Source: Brockia lithotrophica
GTDB taxonomy: Bacteria > Bacillota > Bacilli > Thermicanales > DSM-22653
DNA: 64,000 bases
Direction: 5' to 3'
Assembly: GCF_003633725.1 (NCBI RefSeq)
Contig: NZ_RBIJ01000001.1
Location: forward strand, 193,934 to 257,933
Positions 9,828 to 18,969 of this stretch are shown here, piece by piece (position 1 is the first letter of the stretch; the number at the start of each line of letters is the position of its first letter). The notes under the pieces are model-generated. The model made no database searches, had not been told where the DNA came from, and was given only the letters and a program-made list of their open reading frames with translations. Position numbers and translations under genes: made by a program.

Positions 9828-10844
9828 GTGGGCGTGAACCGGAAGATCAGGGATCGGAGGGGGCGGAGTCCACTGTGCATAACCGCCGAAGAGCGCGATC
9901 TCCTTCTTCGCGATCTCGGGCGGGGAGGAGTGCCACCCCCTTGTGGGCCTTTGGACAGGGGTGGCGCTTCTTTGGGGGAAAATTCGGCGGACGTCCGTTC
10001 GACGGCACGAGCTCACCAAGGCGCCTCTGCCGCATGCACTCAGACATCCGAGCGGGTTTTGGTTGTCTCTGAGGTGGAGAGCGCGGGGTCTTTGTCCGTG
10101 ACGCGTCTGGTCGAACGCTTCCGGACCACGGTGCGCGATATGCGGGAACGGTACGGGATTTTTCGGAAGGTTTCGTTCGTCGTTTCCACGCCCGATCTTG
10201 CGGTGGTGGGATTTATATCCGCCGAGGAAGGGGGTGCGCGTGAGGGCGTCGATCTCCGGCTTCTCTTCCCCACGGGGGTCCGGGCGGACGAGCGTTCCTA
10301 CGGTGTGCACGCCCTCGCATGTGCGCGTCGGCGCGGGGATTTTTGCGCCGTGTGGGGCTGGGAGCACACCTGTCCTGCACTTCATCCCTTTTGGTCGCTT
10401 GCTGCCCCTGTTTTCGTGGATGGCCTCCGTGGAGACCGGATTCTGGGGTATGTGGGGCTTTTTGCGGACCGGCGGGAGGAGCTCGAAGGATACGTTGGGT
10501 GGCTCGCGGAAAGCCTTCACGCCATCCGGAGAGACGTGGAGGAAGGCTTGGAGAGGAGTTCCGCCCTTCGGTGGGTTCGTCCGACGGTTGCGGTGTACAT
10601 CCCGGCCGCCGTCGCCCGCCTCCTCACGCCAAGAGAGCACGAGGTTCTCGCAGCTTTTCTTGCGGGGCTCAGCCTCGATGCCGTCGCGCGGGAGTTCTAC
10701 CTGACCCGGTCGTCCGTCCGTACGTACCTCGAACGGGTGGCGGCAAAATTGGGCGTCGAGCCCCGCCTCTCCGAGCTTCGCGCCTACATCGACCGGATGG
10801 CCCAAAGTTGCGAGGTGCCTTGTCCTCCGCGCCGAACGACATAA
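9828..10844 (+). CDS. GAF-domain LuxR-family transcriptional regulator
   Basis: A 338-residue regulator starting at GTG (9828 or the in-frame GTG at 9834). Residues about 75-240 resemble the GAF sensor of AcoR-type activators: VSTPDLAVVGFIS, SYGVHALACA, VWGWEHTCPALHPFWSLAAP and a G..LGYVGL strand in the expected order. The C-terminus (about 255-335) is a LuxR winged helix, LTPREHEVLAAFLAG...TRSSVRTYLERVAAKLGVEP. AcoR proteins usually carry a sigma-54 AAA+ domain; here GAF is joined directly to LuxR HTH. The first 70 residues are low-complexity and may be mis-started. It lies upstream of the protease gene and could control it. The paralogous split copy is at 3.8-4.3 kb. Confidence 0.75.
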   Translation: MGVNRKIRDRRGRSPLCITAEERDLLLRDLGRGGVPPPCGPLDRGGASLGENSADVRSTARAHQGASAACTQTSERVLVVSEVESAGSLSVTRLVERFRTTVRDMRERYGIFRKVSFVVSTPDLAVVGFISAEEGGAREGVDLRLLFPTGVRADERSYGVHALACARRRGDFCAVWGWEHTCPALHPFWSLAAPVFVDGLRGDRILGYVGLFADRREELEGYVGWLAESLHAIRRDVEEGLERSSALRWVRPTVAVYIPAAVARLLTPREHEVLAAFLAGLSLDAVAREFYLTRSSVRTYLERVAAKLGVEPRLSELRAYIDRMAQSCEVPCPPRRTT

Positions 10845-11097
10845 CCGCGATCTTGGACCGGATGTCCCCTCTTTTGTCCGACAGATCGGCAAAGTACCCA
10901 TGGTGTATGTTTACTTTCGATCCGGAAGCGTGTTACGAGTTGTGCGAAGGATTCGGGAGATTTTCTGTGCCCGGTTCTTATGGTTCTCTCGGCGTTCTTC
11001 TGATGTGCCTTGCGTTCTCCCGGTACTCCGGATGTTGGGACAATGCGGCTTGGAGCAGACGCGGGACGATTTCGGAAATGCGAGGAGGGAATTCAGA

Positions 11098-14000
11098 ATG
11101 CACAGACGCCCCCCTACTTTCCGGAAAGCGCTTCTTTGGACCGTGGCGTTTCTCCTTTGGCTTTCGAGCGTGTCTCCGGCGTTTGCCGGTCCGGAGCAAA
11201 CGGATATGCGCGCGGGGAAGGAAAGCCGCCCCGCCTTGAGTGCCCGCGACCAAGTCCTTATGCGCAAGGTCGCTCCGGAAGTACTGGATGCCTTTGCCAA
11301 GGGCGACATGGTCACGTACCTCGTGCGGCTGAGGGAACAGGTGGACGTATCGGCGGTGGCGGACTCGGCGCGAAAACGGGCAGTGATGCAAAAGGAAAGC
11401 CCCGCAGGCCAAAAGGTTGCCGTACGCCAGGCCGTCGCCTCCGCGCTACGTGAGACGGCCCTTCGCACCCAGGCGCCTTTGGTCGGCCTCCTCGAGGCGG
11501 AGAAGCACCGGGGTAACGTACGCGAGTACGAGTCGTTTTTCGTCGTCAACGCCCTTGCGGTGACTTCGACGAAAGACGTTTTGGACGAGCTCGCCCTCCG
11601 TCCGGAAGTGGAGAAGATCCTCCCCAACGCCGAGGTGCGCCTCATCGGCGGCCCCCTTGGTGTTTCTCTCGAACCGACGGAAGGTGGAGCGGCCTCGCCC
11701 GCCTCGACGACGCAGGAAATAGAAGGGGGGCGGACTACAGCGCCCTCGGCGGTGCTTCCCGCGCCCCATCTCGGAGAGGCGCTCGCGGAGGGCGTGGAAT
11801 GGAACGTCGCCCACGTGCGGGCGCCTCAGGTGTGGGCGATGGGCATCGACGGTACGGGGGTCGTCGTCGCCAATTTGGACACGGGCGTGGACGGAGAGCA
11901 TCCGGCCCTTGCGCGGAAGTGGCGGGGTCGGACGGGCGATCCGGCTCTGAGTTGGTTTGACGCCACTTACGAGCGGCGGCCGCGGCCGGTGGACACGAAC
12001 GGACACGGGACGCACGTCATGGGTACTATGGTCGGCTCCGAGGAAAGCGGAGAAAACCGGGTAGGCGTGGCCACGGGAGCGACGTGGATCGCTGTCCGCG
12101 TATTCGTCGGCAATTCGACGACCACGGACGTCCTCCTCCGCGGGGGAGAGTGGGTCCTTGCGCCCCGCGACTCCCAAGGGAATCTCCATCCGGAGATGGC
12201 GCCCGACGTCGTGAACAACTCCTGGGGTGCGGGTCCCGGGATGGACGAGTTCTACCGCGATATGGTTCGGGCGTGGCGGGCGGCGGGAATTTTCCCGGTC
12301 TTCGCCAACGGCAACAGCGGCCCAGGGGCGGGCACCGTCGGTCCTCCGGCAAACTATCCGGAATCCTTCGGCGTAGGTGCCGTAAACGCGCGCAACGAAG
12401 TGGCATCCTTTTCCAGCCGCGGGCCTTCTCCCTACGGCGAGATCAAACCCGACGTGGCCGCTCCGGGGGTAAACATCCGCTCCAGCGTGCCGGGAGGCGG
12501 GTATCAGGGCGGGTGGAGCGGGACCTCCATGGCCGCTCCGCACGTGGCGGGCGTCGTAGCGCTCCTTTTGCAGGCCAACGCCTCGCTTACGGTGGACGAG
12601 CTCGTCACCGTCTTGCGCGAGACGGCAGTTCCCCTCACAGATGACCAGTACCCGGATGTTCCCAACAACGGCTACGGGTACGGGCTTATCGACGCGTATG
12701 CTGCGGTGAACTCTGTCATCGCCGGCTTCGGGACCGTGGAGGGGCGCGTGACGGCGGAAGGCGAGGACCGCGAACCCCCGGTTGTTGAGCCCGAAACGCT
12801 CGGCGGGGTGTTCGTCGGGGACGAGGTTGAAGTCCGCGCGCGCGTGACGGACGACGTGGCCGTGACGAACGTAGAGCTCTTCGTCCGCGCTCCTGGAGCG
12901 GAGGAGTGGACGAGCTTTCCCATGCGGCGTGTCGAGGGCGACCACCGTTCGGGGACGTATGCGGCGACCATACCCGCATCGTCTACCCGTCCCCCTGCCG
13001 TGGAATACCGTATACGCGCCGAAGACTACGGAGGGCACGTGACCGAAACGCCCGTCTACGAAATCCCCGTCTCTACGGGTGTGAAGCCGGGCTACGTTCA
13101 GGATTTCGAGCACGACTGGTACGGATTCCGCACGGGCGGGGAACAAAACACCTGGGCTCGCGGCAAACCGAATACGGGACCTATGGGCGCCCACAGCGGC
13201 GAATACGTCCTCGCTTCCAACCTCACGGGGACCTACCTTCCGAACGCGAACAGCTGGGTCCGCATGCCGCCGATCGACCTCACGGACCACGAGGGGATGG
13301 CACTTCTCACCTTTTGGCATTGGTACGACCTCGAACCCCGGTACGACTTCGGGCGCGTGTACGTGGTCGCCGAATCGACGGGTGGGGAGCCTGTCTTGGC
13401 GGCTGAATTCACGGGCCGCGACCGAACGTGGCGGCAGGTGGTCATCGACCTCACGCCGTACCGCGGTCAGGTCGTCACGGTGCTGTGGAATCTCGTAAGC
13501 GACTATTCCGTCCAGTACGACGGGTGGTTCGTCGACGACGTCGCGCTCGTGGGGCCTGCGGAAGCTCCGCCCCCAGCGCCCGAAGGATTGCGCGCCTCGG
13601 CAAATGATCTGGGACAGGTGACCCTCGCGTGGGATCCCGTGGATGACGTACACGTAAAGGACTACGTCCTCTATCGGGCTCGGACGGATGGCGTATGGGA
13701 GGAGGTCGGGTATAGCCGTACGACGTCCGCCTTCCACATCCCCACCGAAAGCGGTACGTATTCCTTTGCCGTCGCCGCCCGCACGTACGACGGCACCGTT
13801 GGCGAACGATCGCAGCCGGTGGAGATCGCCGTGACGGTTCCGCCCGTGCTCTTCTTGGATGACTTTAACGGACCGGACGACAACGGGTGGACGCACGGCG
13901 GGCGCAACGACATTTGGGCCCGCGGGGAGCCGCGCAAGGGGCCGATGGCAGCGCTCATCCCCCCGAACGTGTGGGCGACCGGTCTTTCGGGGAACTACGA

Positions 14001-16767
14001 AAACAACATGGACGCTTCCCTATACGCCCCTCCGATCGACCTGCGGAATGCGGAGCACGCCGGACTTACGTTTGCCCACTGGTACGAGATCGAACGGTAC
14101 TGGGACAAGGCCCGCGTGGAGATCTCGCGCGACGGCGGCCAGAATTGGGAGGAACTCGCCGCGTATTCGGACCGCGAGGTGGGGAAACGTTGGTCGTTCG
14201 TGCGCGTAGACCTCGATCCGTACGTGGGTCACGTCGTCCAACTTCGCTTTCGCTTCACGAGCGATTCATCGGTGACGTACCAGGGGTGGCTCCTCGACCA
14301 CGTCGTCGTCTACGCCACACACGTAGATACGGACCTCGGTCCGCACGAAGAGGCGTTTTTCCCCGAGGAGAAGCCCTCCCGGGACGTACCTGACTCCCCC
14401 CCTCCGAGGCTTTCCCGCGAGTCGTCTCCTATAGCTCCGGATCCGGGCCTCAAGGGAGGGGAGGGCCGTACCCTTCCAATGCCCGGGGCGGGCCTCGTGG
14501 ATGCACGCACGGGTGCCATCCCCCTGGCAGCGACCGTGACCTCGCTCGAAACGGGGCGTTCTACCCGATCGGACCCGGTGACGGGTGCCTACCGCCTGCG
14601 CCTGCCCGCCGGCGAGCACACGCTTCGGGCGGAGGCCTACGGCTACTTCCCCGCGGAGCGGCGCGTGCGCGTAGAGGACGGTCAGACTGTACAGGTGGAC
14701 TTCCACCTCCTCCCGCGCCCACGCGGCTGGATTGAGGGGCAAGTGGTGGACGAACGGTCGGGTGCTCCCCTTTCCGGAGCCCGCATCCTCGTGCTCGAGG
14801 ACGCTCAAGTTCCTCCGGCGACGAGCGATGGGGAGGGGAACTTCCGCCTCGAGGTTTACGCCGGCCGCTACACGCTTTCCGTCTCCCACCCCGAATACCA
14901 CCCGCTGCGGACGGAAGTGGAGGTTGCAGGCGGCGAAACGGTCTCTGTAACGCTCCGTCTCAAGCCGTTTATCGGTATCGAGGACACGATCGCCTACGAC
15001 GGAGGAACTGCGGACAACGCGTGGGCGTTCTACCGGGCGGGGAACGGCTTTGCCGTACGCATGTCCCCCCGAAGCACCCCCGTGCAAGTGGTGGGCGGCC
15101 TCTTCCGTTTTTGGGACACCAGCTGGCCTGTACCCGGGGGGACGGACTTCCGCGTGGCGGTCTTTGACGCGAGCGGCCCAGGCGGAGCCCCTGGAAAGCT
15201 CCTGTTGGGTCCCCTGCCGGCGCAGGCCAAGCGCGACGGAACGTGGACGGAAGTCCGCTTCGACGAACCAATCCTTGTAGAGGGAGACTTTTACCTCGCG
15301 GCGATCCAGGCGGCGGATTACCCGTATACGCCCGGTCTGGCGACGGATGAGACGTCTCCGAACTCGGGCCGCAATTGGCTCTACGTGGACGGAGACTGGT
15401 CCCAGGCTGAGCGCGAGAAGGGGAACTTCCTCATCCGCGCCCTCGTCCGGTACCCGGTAGAAGCGCCGACGATCCTCGAACCCGAAGACGGATCCTTTAC
15501 GAATCGGGAGGACGTCCTCGTCCGCGGTACCTTTGCCGTCGAGGGGGCGAGGGTACGCGTATTCAACGGCGGAGATCTTGCGGGCGAAACTACCATTCGA
15601 GACGGCGGTTTCTCCCTTACGGTGCACCTCCGGGAAGGAGAAAACGTACTTACGGCCGTGGGCGTGGTGGGGGACAAGCTCACGGATCCGTCGGCCCCCG
15701 TTCGGGTGATCGTAAAGCTCACGCCGCCCGTGCTCGCTCTTGAAGAACCACCTGATGGACTAAGGACCAACCGCGACGCCGTCGGAGTTCGGGGAACGGT
15801 CCGGGATTCGTACCTCGCCTCGCTCACGGTGAACGGACAAGGAGTCGTCGTCCGGGAGGATGGCACCTTCGCCCACCGCGTGCTTTTGGACGAAGGAGAA
15901 AATCGGATCGTCGTGGTAGCCACGGACCGCGCGGGGAACGAGGCGAGGGTAGAGCGTACGGTGTACATGTCGCAGAGGTTGCCGGAGTACGAAGTCGTCG
16001 CGCCGGCAGAGGACGTAACCCTCGGCGAGGGTGAGGAACTCGTCGTGCGGGCAGAAGGGGACGGCGGACTCCTTATGACCTTCCGGTTGGAACTCCCACT
16101 CGTGGCGGAGACGGCGGAAGGCTCCGTACTCCCCATGCCGGAAATCTCTCCAGGGGTGTACGAAGGGCGCTGGCGGGTGCCCGCGGGGCTTCAGGCAGAA
16201 GGCGTCCGCGTCCGCGTGGAAGGCGTAGATGCTTACGGAAACGTCGCCGTCCGCTACGCGCCTGGGCGCGTGAATTTCCGCGCGGGAGAACCTTTCGTCG
16301 TGGTGGGCGGGAATCTCCGTGCCCAAGCCTTCGGTCCTGAGGTTCGTTACGACGAAGTATGGTACGCAGGACCGGACGGCGTGCTTTGCGTCGAGGTTCG
16401 GGCGTACGACGGGCGCGGCGCCGTGGCCGCGGAGGGCAAGGTGTACGCGGACGGGAGATTCGAGCTCGCGCTCCCGCGCGGGGCGACGTACACCGTGGAA
16501 GTCCGCGTTCCCGGACACCTTTCCTACCGCACGCAGGTCTTTGTGGACGGAGATCGCTACCTGGAAGTTCCGCTCCTTTTGGCAGGTGACGTGAACGGAG
16601 ACGGAAGAATCGACGCCCGCGATCTCGCGGAGATCACCCGTCACCTGGGGAAGCGCGCCCCCTGGAAATCGCTTGCCGAGGCGCGCGCGGACCTCAACCG
16701 AGACGGCGTCGTCGACTACCGCGACCTCGCGTACGTGCTCAAAAACCTCGGGAAGCGGAGCAGGTGA
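11098..16767 (+). CDS. giant secreted subtilase, bacillopeptidase F-like, with dockerin-like C-terminus
   Basis: ATG 11098 follows GAGGAGG (11082-11088) and gives 1889 residues. Order: signal peptide ending SVSPAFA; I9-like propeptide (about 45-190); S8 peptidase with Asp261 in NLDTGVD, His303 in NGHGTH, the NNSWG oxyanion region and Ser477 in GTSMAAP; a first MAM-like jelly roll (about 668-822); an Fn3-like domain (825-915); a second MAM-like unit (920-1077); two carboxypeptidase-regulatory-like beta domains (1127-1297); a beta domain (1297-1455); two bacterial Ig-like repeats (1456-1625). It ends with paired calcium loops DVNGDGRIDARDLA (from Asp1831) and DLNRDGVVDYRDLA (from Asp1865), like type I dockerin. 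B. subtilis Bpr is shorter, about 1430 residues. It should be an exported protease with adhesive repeats. No sortase motif or S-layer domain is seen. Confidence 0.9.
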   Translation: MHRRPPTFRKALLWTVAFLLWLSSVSPAFAGPEQTDMRAGKESRPALSARDQVLMRKVAPEVLDAFAKGDMVTYLVRLREQVDVSAVADSARKRAVMQKESPAGQKVAVRQAVASALRETALRTQAPLVGLLEAEKHRGNVREYESFFVVNALAVTSTKDVLDELALRPEVEKILPNAEVRLIGGPLGVSLEPTEGGAASPASTTQEIEGGRTTAPSAVLPAPHLGEALAEGVEWNVAHVRAPQVWAMGIDGTGVVVANLDTGVDGEHPALARKWRGRTGDPALSWFDATYERRPRPVDTNGHGTHVMGTMVGSEESGENRVGVATGATWIAVRVFVGNSTTTDVLLRGGEWVLAPRDSQGNLHPEMAPDVVNNSWGAGPGMDEFYRDMVRAWRAAGIFPVFANGNSGPGAGTVGPPANYPESFGVGAVNARNEVASFSSRGPSPYGEIKPDVAAPGVNIRSSVPGGGYQGGWSGTSMAAPHVAGVVALLLQANASLTVDELVTVLRETAVPLTDDQYPDVPNNGYGYGLIDAYAAVNSVIAGFGTVEGRVTAEGEDREPPVVEPETLGGVFVGDEVEVRARVTDDVAVTNVELFVRAPGAEEWTSFPMRRVEGDHRSGTYAATIPASSTRPPAVEYRIRAEDYGGHVTETPVYEIPVSTGVKPGYVQDFEHDWYGFRTGGEQNTWARGKPNTGPMGAHSGEYVLASNLTGTYLPNANSWVRMPPIDLTDHEGMALLTFWHWYDLEPRYDFGRVYVVAESTGGEPVLAAEFTGRDRTWRQVVIDLTPYRGQVVTVLWNLVSDYSVQYDGWFVDDVALVGPAEAPPPAPEGLRASANDLGQVTLAWDPVDDVHVKDYVLYRARTDGVWEEVGYSRTTSAFHIPTESGTYSFAVAARTYDGTVGERSQPVEIAVTVPPVLFLDDFNGPDDNGWTHGGRNDIWARGEPRKGPMAALIPPNVWATGLSGNYENNMDASLYAPPIDLRNAEHAGLTFAHWYEIERYWDKARVEISRDGGQNWEELAAYSDREVGKRWSFVRVDLDPYVGHVVQLRFRFTSDSSVTYQGWLLDHVVVYATHVDTDLGPHEEAFFPEEKPSRDVPDSPPPRLSRESSPIAPDPGLKGGEGRTLPMPGAGLVDARTGAIPLAATVTSLETGRSTRSDPVTGAYRLRLPAGEHTLRAEAYGYFPAERRVRVEDGQTVQVDFHLLPRPRGWIEGQVVDERSGAPLSGARILVLEDAQVPPATSDGEGNFRLEVYAGRYTLSVSHPEYHPLRTEVEVAGGETVSVTLRLKPFIGIEDTIAYDGGTADNAWAFYRAGNGFAVRMSPRSTPVQVVGGLFRFWDTSWPVPGGTDFRVAVFDASGPGGAPGKLLLGPLPAQAKRDGTWTEVRFDEPILVEGDFYLAAIQAADYPYTPGLATDETSPNSGRNWLYVDGDWSQAEREKGNFLIRALVRYPVEAPTILEPEDGSFTNREDVLVRGTFAVEGARVRVFNGGDLAGETTIRDGGFSLTVHLREGENVLTAVGVVGDKLTDPSAPVRVIVKLTPPVLALEEPPDGLRTNRDAVGVRGTVRDSYLASLTVNGQGVVVREDGTFAHRVLLDEGENRIVVVATDRAGNEARVERTVYMSQRLPEYEVVAPAEDVTLGEGEELVVRAEGDGGLLMTFRLELPLVAETAEGSVLPMPEISPGVYEGRWRVPAGLQAEGVRVRVEGVDAYGNVAVRYAPGRVNFRAGEPFVVVGGNLRAQAFGPEVRYDEVWYAGPDGVLCVEVRAYDGRGAVAAEGKVYADGRFELALPRGATYTVEVRVPGHLSYRTQVFVDGDRYLEVPLLLAGDVNGDGRIDARDLAEITRHLGKRAPWKSLAEARADLNRDGVVDYRDLAYVLKNLGKRSR

Positions 16768-17730: not shown

Positions 17731-18969
17731 GTGGTAGAGGTGGCTTCCCGTCAAGCGATCCGCGAACGGATTTTCGTTTTCGGACGCCACGACGAGGAAA
17801 CGCTCAGGCAAATCGAGGACGTCGCCCGTCACGCCGTCCGTGCGGCGCTCATGGCGGACGGCCACGTGGGCTACGTGATGCCCATAGGCGGCGTTGCCGC
17901 CTTTGAACATGCCGTAAGCGTGGCGGGCGTGGGCTTCGACATCGCCTGCGGCAACGCGGCGATCCTCACGGACCTTTATCTGGACGACCTGAAGGACCAC
18001 CTCGAAGAAATCGCCGACGAAATTCAGGCGACGATCTCCTTTGGCCTTGGGCGGACGAACCGGGCACCGGACGCTCCCGTGGATCACCCCCTGTTCGAGT
18101 CCGAGGCGTGGGACGCCATTCCCGCGCCGCGTTCGGAGCGGGAGGAGCTTCGCGAAAAGGCGCGCATGCAGCTCGGAACGGTAGGCGGCGGAAACCACTA
18201 CGTCGACGTCTTTGCCGACGAAGAGGACCGCATTTGGGTCGGCGTGCACTTCGGATCGAGGGGGCTCGGGTACACGATCGCCCGGGGTTTCCTCGCCCTC
18301 GCTGCCGGGAAGAAGTGGGGCGATTCCGTACCCGAGCACCTCGCCCTCCTCGACTTGGGGAGCGAGCTCGGGCAGAGGTACTGGGCGCTCATGACGCTGG
18401 CGGGCGAGTACGCCTACGTTGGGCGCGAGTGGGTGGCGCGCAAAGTCGTTAGCATCTTGGGTGGCCAAGAGCTCGACCTTGTCCACAACCACCACAACTT
18501 CGCCTGGCGGGAAGTCCACGACGGCCGCGAACTCATCGTGGTGCGCAAAGGTGCGACTCCGGCGTGGCCGGGACAGAGGAGCTTCGTGGGCGGAAGCATG
18601 GGGGACCTCTCAGTAATCCTTCGCGGCACTGAATCGGAAAATCCAGAAGTTGTAGAGCTTCAGCGTTCTGCTCTCTACTCCACAGTGCACGGTGCTGGCC
18701 GGATTATGAGCCGCACAGAAGCTAAGGGCAAAATCCGTAAGGGTAAAGTAGTTCAGCCCGGGCGTGTGCGACGGGAGGAAATGCTCGAAGCTCTCAAGAG
18801 CCGCGGTGTAATCCTCCGCGGCGGTGACGTGGACGAGGCACCGCAGGTGTATCGCCCACTCGAAGAAGTTCTCGCCGCCCAAGGCCCCACGATCGAGATC
18901 CTCCACCGTCTGCGGCCGCTCGTGGTCGTGATGGCCGGCCCCGAAGACTTTGATCCGTACAAGGACTGA
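17731..18969 (+). CDS. rtcB: RNA-splicing ligase RtcB
   Basis: A 412-residue RtcB ligase, which joins 2',3'-cyclic phosphate (or 3'-phosphate) and 5'-OH RNA ends with GTP and Mn2+. Visible family motifs are MADGHVGYVMPIGGV, the metal-binding Cys in VGFDIACGNAA, GTVGGGNHYVDV, VHFGSRGLG, HNHHNFAW, RKGATPAWPG and the guanylated His in TVHGAGRIMSR. It starts at GTG 17731 after AAGGAGGTG. No archease gene is adjacent. The 3' portion (about 18615-18770) uses markedly fewer G/C third positions than the flanks although the protein motifs continue intact. Confidence 0.92.
   Translation: MVEVASRQAIRERIFVFGRHDEETLRQIEDVARHAVRAALMADGHVGYVMPIGGVAAFEHAVSVAGVGFDIACGNAAILTDLYLDDLKDHLEEIADEIQATISFGLGRTNRAPDAPVDHPLFESEAWDAIPAPRSEREELREKARMQLGTVGGGNHYVDVFADEEDRIWVGVHFGSRGLGYTIARGFLALAAGKKWGDSVPEHLALLDLGSELGQRYWALMTLAGEYAYVGREWVARKVVSILGGQELDLVHNHHNFAWREVHDGRELIVVRKGATPAWPGQRSFVGGSMGDLSVILRGTESENPEVVELQRSALYSTVHGAGRIMSRTEAKGKIRKGKVVQPGRVRREEMLEALKSRGVILRGGDVDEAPQVYRPLEEVLAAQGPTIEILHRLRPLVVVMAGPEDFDPYKD

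Follow-up and report, generated by a model that had tools for sequence, protein, structure and literature searches.

A type II-like dockerin on a secreted subtilase, probably orphaned from a cohesin-SLH anchoring pair of related Bacilli

A secreted subtilase encoded at 11098-16767 of the window (the whole 64,000-nt stretch of DNA that was analysed) ends in a dockerin, and the match of this tail to the dockerin family is far beyond chance. The best explanation, held at a probability of roughly 60%, is that the tail is an orphan dockerin from a surface-anchoring pair and is now probably a calcium-stabilised C-terminal cap. This type II-like X-dockerin would descend from a dedicated system of two proteins for display at the cell surface.

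Layout of the window protease and identity of its tail

The reading frame of the window protease is open from 10900 (1955 codons). A start at this position, giving 1955 residues, was dropped in favour of the ATG at 11098, because AGGAGGG sits 8 bases upstream of the latter and the product then begins with a typical signal peptide. The original prediction of a subtilase of 1889 residues with a dockerin-like end agrees with this start and with the PF00082 and PF00404 matches. The protein belongs to subtilase family S8, having both the S8 domain and the catalytic motifs DTGVD, HGTH and GTSMA (D261, H303 and S477). Residues 669-816 form a first MAM / choice-of-anchor-J-like domain, and the other features of the gene are as follows.

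11098-16767, forward strand: secreted subtilase with a C-terminal X-dockerin, 1889 residues (ORF, Pfam, ribosome-binding site, signal peptide)
11083-11089, forward strand: ribosome-binding site AGGAGGG, 8 bases ahead of ATG 11098 (sequence)
11098-11187, forward strand: probable signal peptide, residues 1-30, KALLWTVAFLLWLSSVSPAFA (by eye)
11386-11643, forward strand: inhibitor I9-like prodomain, residues 97-182 (Pfam PF05922, E=1.7e-4)
11851-12684, forward strand: Peptidase_S8 catalytic domain (Pfam PF00082, E=1.3e-59)
13999-14310, forward strand: second MAM / choice-of-anchor-J-like domain (Pfam PF20773; NCBIfam NF038128)
14731-14961, forward strand: carboxypeptidase regulatory-like domain (Pfam PF13620)
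15727-15969, forward strand: glucodextranase-B-like Ig domain (Pfam PF09136)
16282-16299, forward strand: junction at which the orthologues of G002 and G004 have an internal cohesin and GDD-rich linkers, absent from the window protease (alignment)
16300-16578, forward strand: X-like module, residues 1735-1827, 43-48% identical to the orthologues (alignment; match to XDoc structures in the PDB)
16582-16749, forward strand: dockerin domain, residues 1829-1884 (Pfam PF00404)
16588-16623, forward strand: calcium loop 1, DVNGDGRIDARD (sequence)
16690-16725, forward strand: calcium loop 2, DLNRDGVVDYRD (sequence)

The G+C content is even along the gene (65.4% for residues 1-1728, 66.3% for the X module and 66.1% for the dockerin); therefore, by that measure, the tail is not a recent import. 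A LuxR-type HTH protein is encoded just upstream (9828-10844) and an RtcB-family protein downstream (17731-18969), both unrelated to anchoring.

The original prediction had proposed an HMM test of the C-terminus for a type I dockerin, and the Dockerin_1 model (PF00404) was clearly passed, with 49.7 bits against a cut-off of 22.9 over model positions 1-56 of 57 (residues 1829-1884; E=4.3e-13 in a single-protein search and 6.8e-15 in the genome scan). This is the top dockerin score among the 48 genomes with a match in the 398 genomes of the class. Generic EF-hand models were much weaker on the tail (best E 6.8e-4), and a chance EF-hand match was ruled out, the dockerin profile scoring 30 bits above the best of them. 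The predicted calcium ligands at positions 1, 3, 5, 9 and 12 read DNDDD in both loops, so that all ten are canonical, and the two F-hand loops with acidic or amide ligands place the tail, by sequence, among the dockerins.

The tail also appears to be a type II X-dockerin dyad, with an X module directly before the dockerin that resembles solved XDoc structures. A profile built from five X-dockerin tails (A3) matched 4wi0_B (2.2e-10) and 4u3s_B (4.7e-10) best, followed by 2b59_B, all annotated as cellulosomal scaffoldins; we take these three chains to be type II X-dockerins that anchor scaffoldins. The first two were again the leading matches when the window tail was the lone query, the match covering the second half of the X module and the entire dockerin. 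The X module and dockerin of the window protease are thus closest in sequence to the type II X-dockerins of cellulosomal scaffoldins. PDB entries 8x39 and 8x3a, named 'Serine protease', match the dockerin weakly, and a literature search for 8X39 gave no relevant paper among the matches listed. AlphaFold on the tail alone, from a single sequence, gave a poor model (mean pLDDT 54), and the predicted secondary structure of strands followed by strand-helix repeats is at most compatible with a dockerin fold.

The protease and cohesin-SLH gene pair in related Bacilli

A gene for a cohesin with three SLH repeats lies beside a dockerin-ended subtilase in seven genomes (G002, G004, G005, G034, G043, G065 and G079), which represent seven genera and four families among the 398 class members searched. 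They were found by inspecting stretches of 14 genomes picked for strong matches (G001 not counted), seven of which show the pair. The cohesin-SLH proteins are 395-438 residues long and each consist of a single cohesin plus three SLH repeats. The paired genes run in the same direction, with a gap of 62-180 bp in six genomes; in the seventh the gap is 796 bp and holds a small dockerin gene. In six of the seven, the dockerin of the protease is the sole Dockerin_1 match of the genome, and G005 has two matches, both within the pair cluster.

G002 and G004 belong to the family of the window species, and their proteases are orthologues of the window protease (58-63% identical over the main matched stretch, 47-50% in the tails). 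Directly upstream of each is a gene for a cohesin-3xSLH protein of 433-438 residues, at 77 and 93 bp. Both proteases carry an internal cohesin between the last Ig domain and the X module, which the window protease is without. In G005, from the same order and another family, three genes form the cluster: they encode a PA-domain subtilase that contains an internal cohesin and ends in an X-dockerin, an X-dockerin protein of 248 residues and a cohesin-SLH protein of 407 residues. Within the window's family the proteases are of the Bpr-like kind, and those of G005, G043, G065 and G034 contain a PA domain. With a custom profile, an internal cohesin together with a terminal dockerin was found in the proteases of G002, G004, G005 and G043; those of G065 and G034 gave weaker cohesin matches. 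The internal cohesins are 15-19% identical to the first SLH-borne cohesin.

This custom profile, A2, was made from six cohesins of the relatives. Among solved cohesins it matched 3l8q_A (scaffoldin adaptor B, 1.2e-10) and 5g5d_A (an anchoring-protein cohesin, 2.8e-6). Together with the A3 matches, this means that dockerin and cohesin were matched independently to opposite sides of one kind of complex. Both profiles were built without G043 and the three genomes of family f8 (G065, G079 and G034). In the f8 genomes, the SLH-borne cohesin is recognized by Pfam in three of three cases (E 5e-11 to 6e-10); the one of G043 escapes Pfam and was found only by A2 (2e-28). Across the 398 genomes, 48 have Dockerin_1, 39 a PF00963 cohesin, 17 an A2 cohesin and 44 either kind of cohesin. 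A cohesin accompanies the dockerin in 35 of the 48 (Fisher p=5e-31, uncorrected for kinship among the 398), and 13 of the 48 are without a cohesin match.

In these relatives, the secreted subtilase would attach through its calcium-folded dockerin to the cohesin of the small SLH protein, and the SLH repeats would fix that protein on the cell wall and keep the protease at the surface. Both the domains and the adjacency of the genes are directly observed. The docking is supported by analogy, because the ScaP2 XDoc binds type II cohesins in C. alkalicellulosi, according to the available part of PMC6780208. The sequences suggest that the pair is a dedicated two-gene protease display system and not a cellulosome.

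Several neighbouring arrangements were recorded. In G004 (L025 7802-11310), an oligopeptide-type ABC transporter, with two permeases and a binding protein recognized by eye, adjoins the pair on the opposite strand and would fit peptide uptake. In G322 (L130 4029-15125), a cohesin-SLH gene precedes genes for GH101 (endo-alpha-N-acetylgalactosaminidase), for a cohesin-dockerin protein of 239 residues and for GH95; GH101 and GH95 each have a cohesin and a dockerin, and the set looks like surface glycan degradation. In G169 (L122 1619-8658), two gamma-glutamyltranspeptidase-like proteins with near-cut-off dockerin ends flank a 229-residue cohesin protein. A single protein of G144 (L129 4429-9351) combines an S8 match, a dockerin-like stretch and three SLH repeats, anchor and protease being fused. 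Dockerin matches of G074 and G109 (L170, L179) fall inside ORFs of 930-942 residues whose ends resemble SLH repeats. Dockerin-like ends with a short conserved tail (GKTLE/GxKGL...LG) occur at L169, L172, L175, L126 and L127, in some cases in genomes without a cohesin match, and this class consists of subtilases where tested (L126, L127).

The missing partner and the state of the window dockerin

The original prediction had called for a search of the genome for cohesin domains and for other proteins with the same C-terminus. In the 1.87-Mb window genome, the dockerin of the window protease is the only one by Pfam genome scan. No cohesin was found there by Pfam, nor by A2 even at E<=1. No SLH domain was found in the window genome or in that of its congener, G001. 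With one dockerin protein and no cohesin found, the window genome falls short of a cellulosome, which takes a multi-cohesin scaffoldin and many glycosidases bearing dockerins. A dockerin on a secreted enzyme is present (signal peptide by eye), and the cohesin on an SLH protein of the same genome, seen in the seven relatives, is absent. The prediction that the dockerin implies a cohesin partner therefore holds for the relatives, in which the partner lies beside the protease fused to SLH repeats, and fails in the window genome. The second option offered, a stand-alone calcium-stabilised cap, is the likelier present state there, because the cohesin searches found nothing.

A cohesin hidden within the window protease was sought and rejected, none being found by Pfam and no room being left at the site of the relatives' internal cohesin. 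A remnant of the anchor gene was also rejected, since tblastn of the window with the relatives' cohesin-SLH proteins gave no match at E<=0.1 outside the protease gene. Strongly diverged cohesins can escape profiles, as those of G004 are missed by the Pfam genome scan and found by A2. The window assembly consists of 12 contigs at 99.07% completeness, and a gene could be absent from it.

Of the five genomes of the family that were compared, the complete pair is present in G002 and G004, both protease and cohesin are missing from G003, and the window genome has the protease without a cohesin. G001, the only other genome of the window's genus, has neither protease nor cohesin and holds a 55-bp relic of the X module alone (contig C7; L027 2597-2651), 80% identical and directly after an isochorismatase gene; the system is therefore being lost in this genus. 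The simplest history would be that the anchor was lost first and then the protease. The window lineage would have lost its SLH proteins, the anchoring cohesin and the internal cohesin of the protease, which is probably now free or held in another way, and the likeliest present role of its dockerin would be that of a folding and stability cap. The earlier statement that Bpr-like enzymes do not usually end in this manner is borne out by the distant homologues of Sporosarcina and Fictibacillus (no such tail in two of two) and is contradicted within the family, where both orthologues found have it. The prediction had named as a counter-case that many Bpr proteins outside cellulosomes, with a different known function, would have identical tails; this did not appear, and the closest tails found adjoin cohesin-SLH genes.

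The window dockerin is well preserved in its calcium loops. In segment 2, the calcium ligands show one departure in G002, three in G004 and none in the window protease. A three-way alignment gave 14 changes unique to the window dockerin, one to G002 and eight to G004. Compared with the remainder of the protein, the window dockerin has not changed significantly faster (p=0.21). Accelerated decay was thus rejected, and there is no visible sign that the dockerin is degenerating. The 14 window-specific changes all lie outside the calcium ligands (P=0.06 by chance). From type I work, we take positions 10, 11, 17 and 18 to be the cohesin-contact positions. Five of the 14 changes fall there against 1.8 expected (p=0.011), in a post hoc test of one sequence at positions taken over from type I dockerins; p becomes 0.038 with position 22 added, and 0.0006, with seven changes, when position 14 is added. 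At positions 10/11 of segment 2, the window dockerin has YR, and the dockerins of the genomes with the cohesin-SLH and subtilase genes have LL, VI or IL. These residues are hydrophobic in all eight dockerins of the seven paired genomes, the rows being related, and in none of the four others tabulated (YR of the window, EK of G020, ET and EA of G276). G276 has internal cohesins. Hydrophobic residues here are not a general mark of partnered dockerins, because three dockerins next to the cohesin-SLH gene of G322 break the rule with LE, IS and IM. The changes at the contact positions are a hint, at sequence level, of a lost interface and not proof of it.

It is unlikely that the window dockerin still docks, whether with a cohesin too diverged to be recognized, with one missing from the assembly or with one displayed by a neighbouring species of its community. 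Its calcium loops are closer to the canonical form than those of G002 and G004, it shows no significant rate excess, and its top score in the class may just as well reflect continued selection by a partner. The available part of a 2024 survey (PMC11557425) raises the idea that scaffoldins pick up dockerin proteins from other microbes. Against this, neither Pfam nor A2 finds a cohesin in the window genome, no SLH domain is there to anchor one, and the contact positions are altered, with a charge at position 11 of segment 2. Very improbable is the proposal that the tail never served for docking in this line of proteases and is a calcium-binding cap, the cohesin-SLH genes of the relatives being coincidental or later recruits. 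The second class of dockerin-like ends with a short extra tail (G055, G192, G267, G276 and G020) and the 13 dockerin genomes of the class without a cohesin match are in keeping with it. However, the orthologues in two sister genera have the cohesin-SLH gene immediately upstream and an internal cohesin, and more distant genomes carry the same pair with a different type of subtilase.

An orphan dockerin, probably retained as a cap, remains the preferred reading, and it could take one addition rather than an alternative. Each internal cohesin of the relatives may bind the dockerin of a further protease copy, so that proteases join into chains or rings on one cohesin-SLH protein, and the window form would be monomeric. 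This is doubtful, if less so than continued docking. Proteases that combine an internal cohesin with a dockerin at the end, seen in G002, G004, G005 and G043 and with weaker cohesin matches in G065 and G034, speak for it, but the low identity of the internal cohesins to the first SLH-borne one indicates that they may differ in specificity.

Relation to known systems and significance

Dockerins are usually taken as a sign of cellulosomes; non-cellulosomal cohesins and dockerins have also been reviewed. Known type II pairings are those of C. thermocellum CipA with SdbA, OlpB and Orf2p and of A. cellulolyticus ScaA with ScaB. The present system is like the type II anchoring of cellulosomes by X-dockerin and cohesin-SLH in its nearest structures on both sides, in the X module before the dockerin and in a partner cohesin on an SLH anchor. 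It differs in that the dockerin is on a protease and not on a scaffoldin, there are one or two dockerins per genome, the partner genes are adjacent and the partner is absent from the window genome. The Bpr-like subtilases of Sporosarcina (L002) and Fictibacillus (L003) are homologous to the window protease over residues 3-1728 and 17-1728, respectively (best segments 43-44%), but are without the X module and the dockerin.

Peptidase scaffoldins with a cohesin and a dockerin are known in cellulosome makers, according to the available parts of PMC6780208, PMC3413522 and PMC11557425. In the first of these, ScaO2 has the layout Peptidase-Coh2-Doc1 and ScaP2 carries XDoc2 (C. alkalicellulosi; ScaO/ScaP of A. 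cellulolyticus), and C. alkalicellulosi has 142 dockerin proteins. The orthologues in G002 and G004 likewise combine peptidase, cohesin and dockerin in one chain, which the window protease does not. As far as the available text of PMC6780208 goes, ScaO/ScaP are accessories of full cellulosomes, whereas in the genomes treated here few or no dockerins occur besides that of the protease, and nothing points to a cellulosome. In the accessible part of PMC11557425, Paenibacillus guangzhouensis has SLH-anchoring cohesins and glycosidase-cohesin-dockerin proteins, with 35 cohesin proteins. This too is a non-classical way for Bacilli to display enzymes, by means of SLH-cohesin and enzyme-cohesin-dockerin proteins, but it involves glycosidases and many cohesin proteins where the present system has a single protease and an anchor. 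The architecture of a subtilase with a dockerin is already on record in a 2008 domain survey, whose available text lists Sub_N-Subt-PA-Dockerin (NP_691157.1) and Subt-(Dockerin_1)2 from Halobacterium, with the role given in the table as cellulose degradation, metabolism (PMC2605481). Unlike the present pair, these entries come with no SLH partner or gene pair, and the word cohesin has no occurrence in that available text. No description of a protease-only cohesin-SLH pair or of an orphaned one was found in the literature, most subscription journals lying outside the search. Subtilase-dockerin proteins and peptidase scaffoldins are thus already known, while the protease-only pair and the orphaned dockerin seem to be new.

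It is proposed tentatively, with belief slightly short of even, that Bacilli outside the cellulosome makers pin one subtilase on an SLH surface by a minimal cohesin-dockerin pair, with two subtilase types (Bpr-like and PA-domain Vpr-like), and that the window dockerin outlived its partners and was re-used with a retained calcium fold and a remodelled contact face. A dockerin on a protease, the sole one in six of seven genomes with an adjacent SLH-cohesin gene, would be a simple natural display pair that is both testable and usable. The window species would offer a clean case of one half of a high-affinity pair after the loss of the other half.
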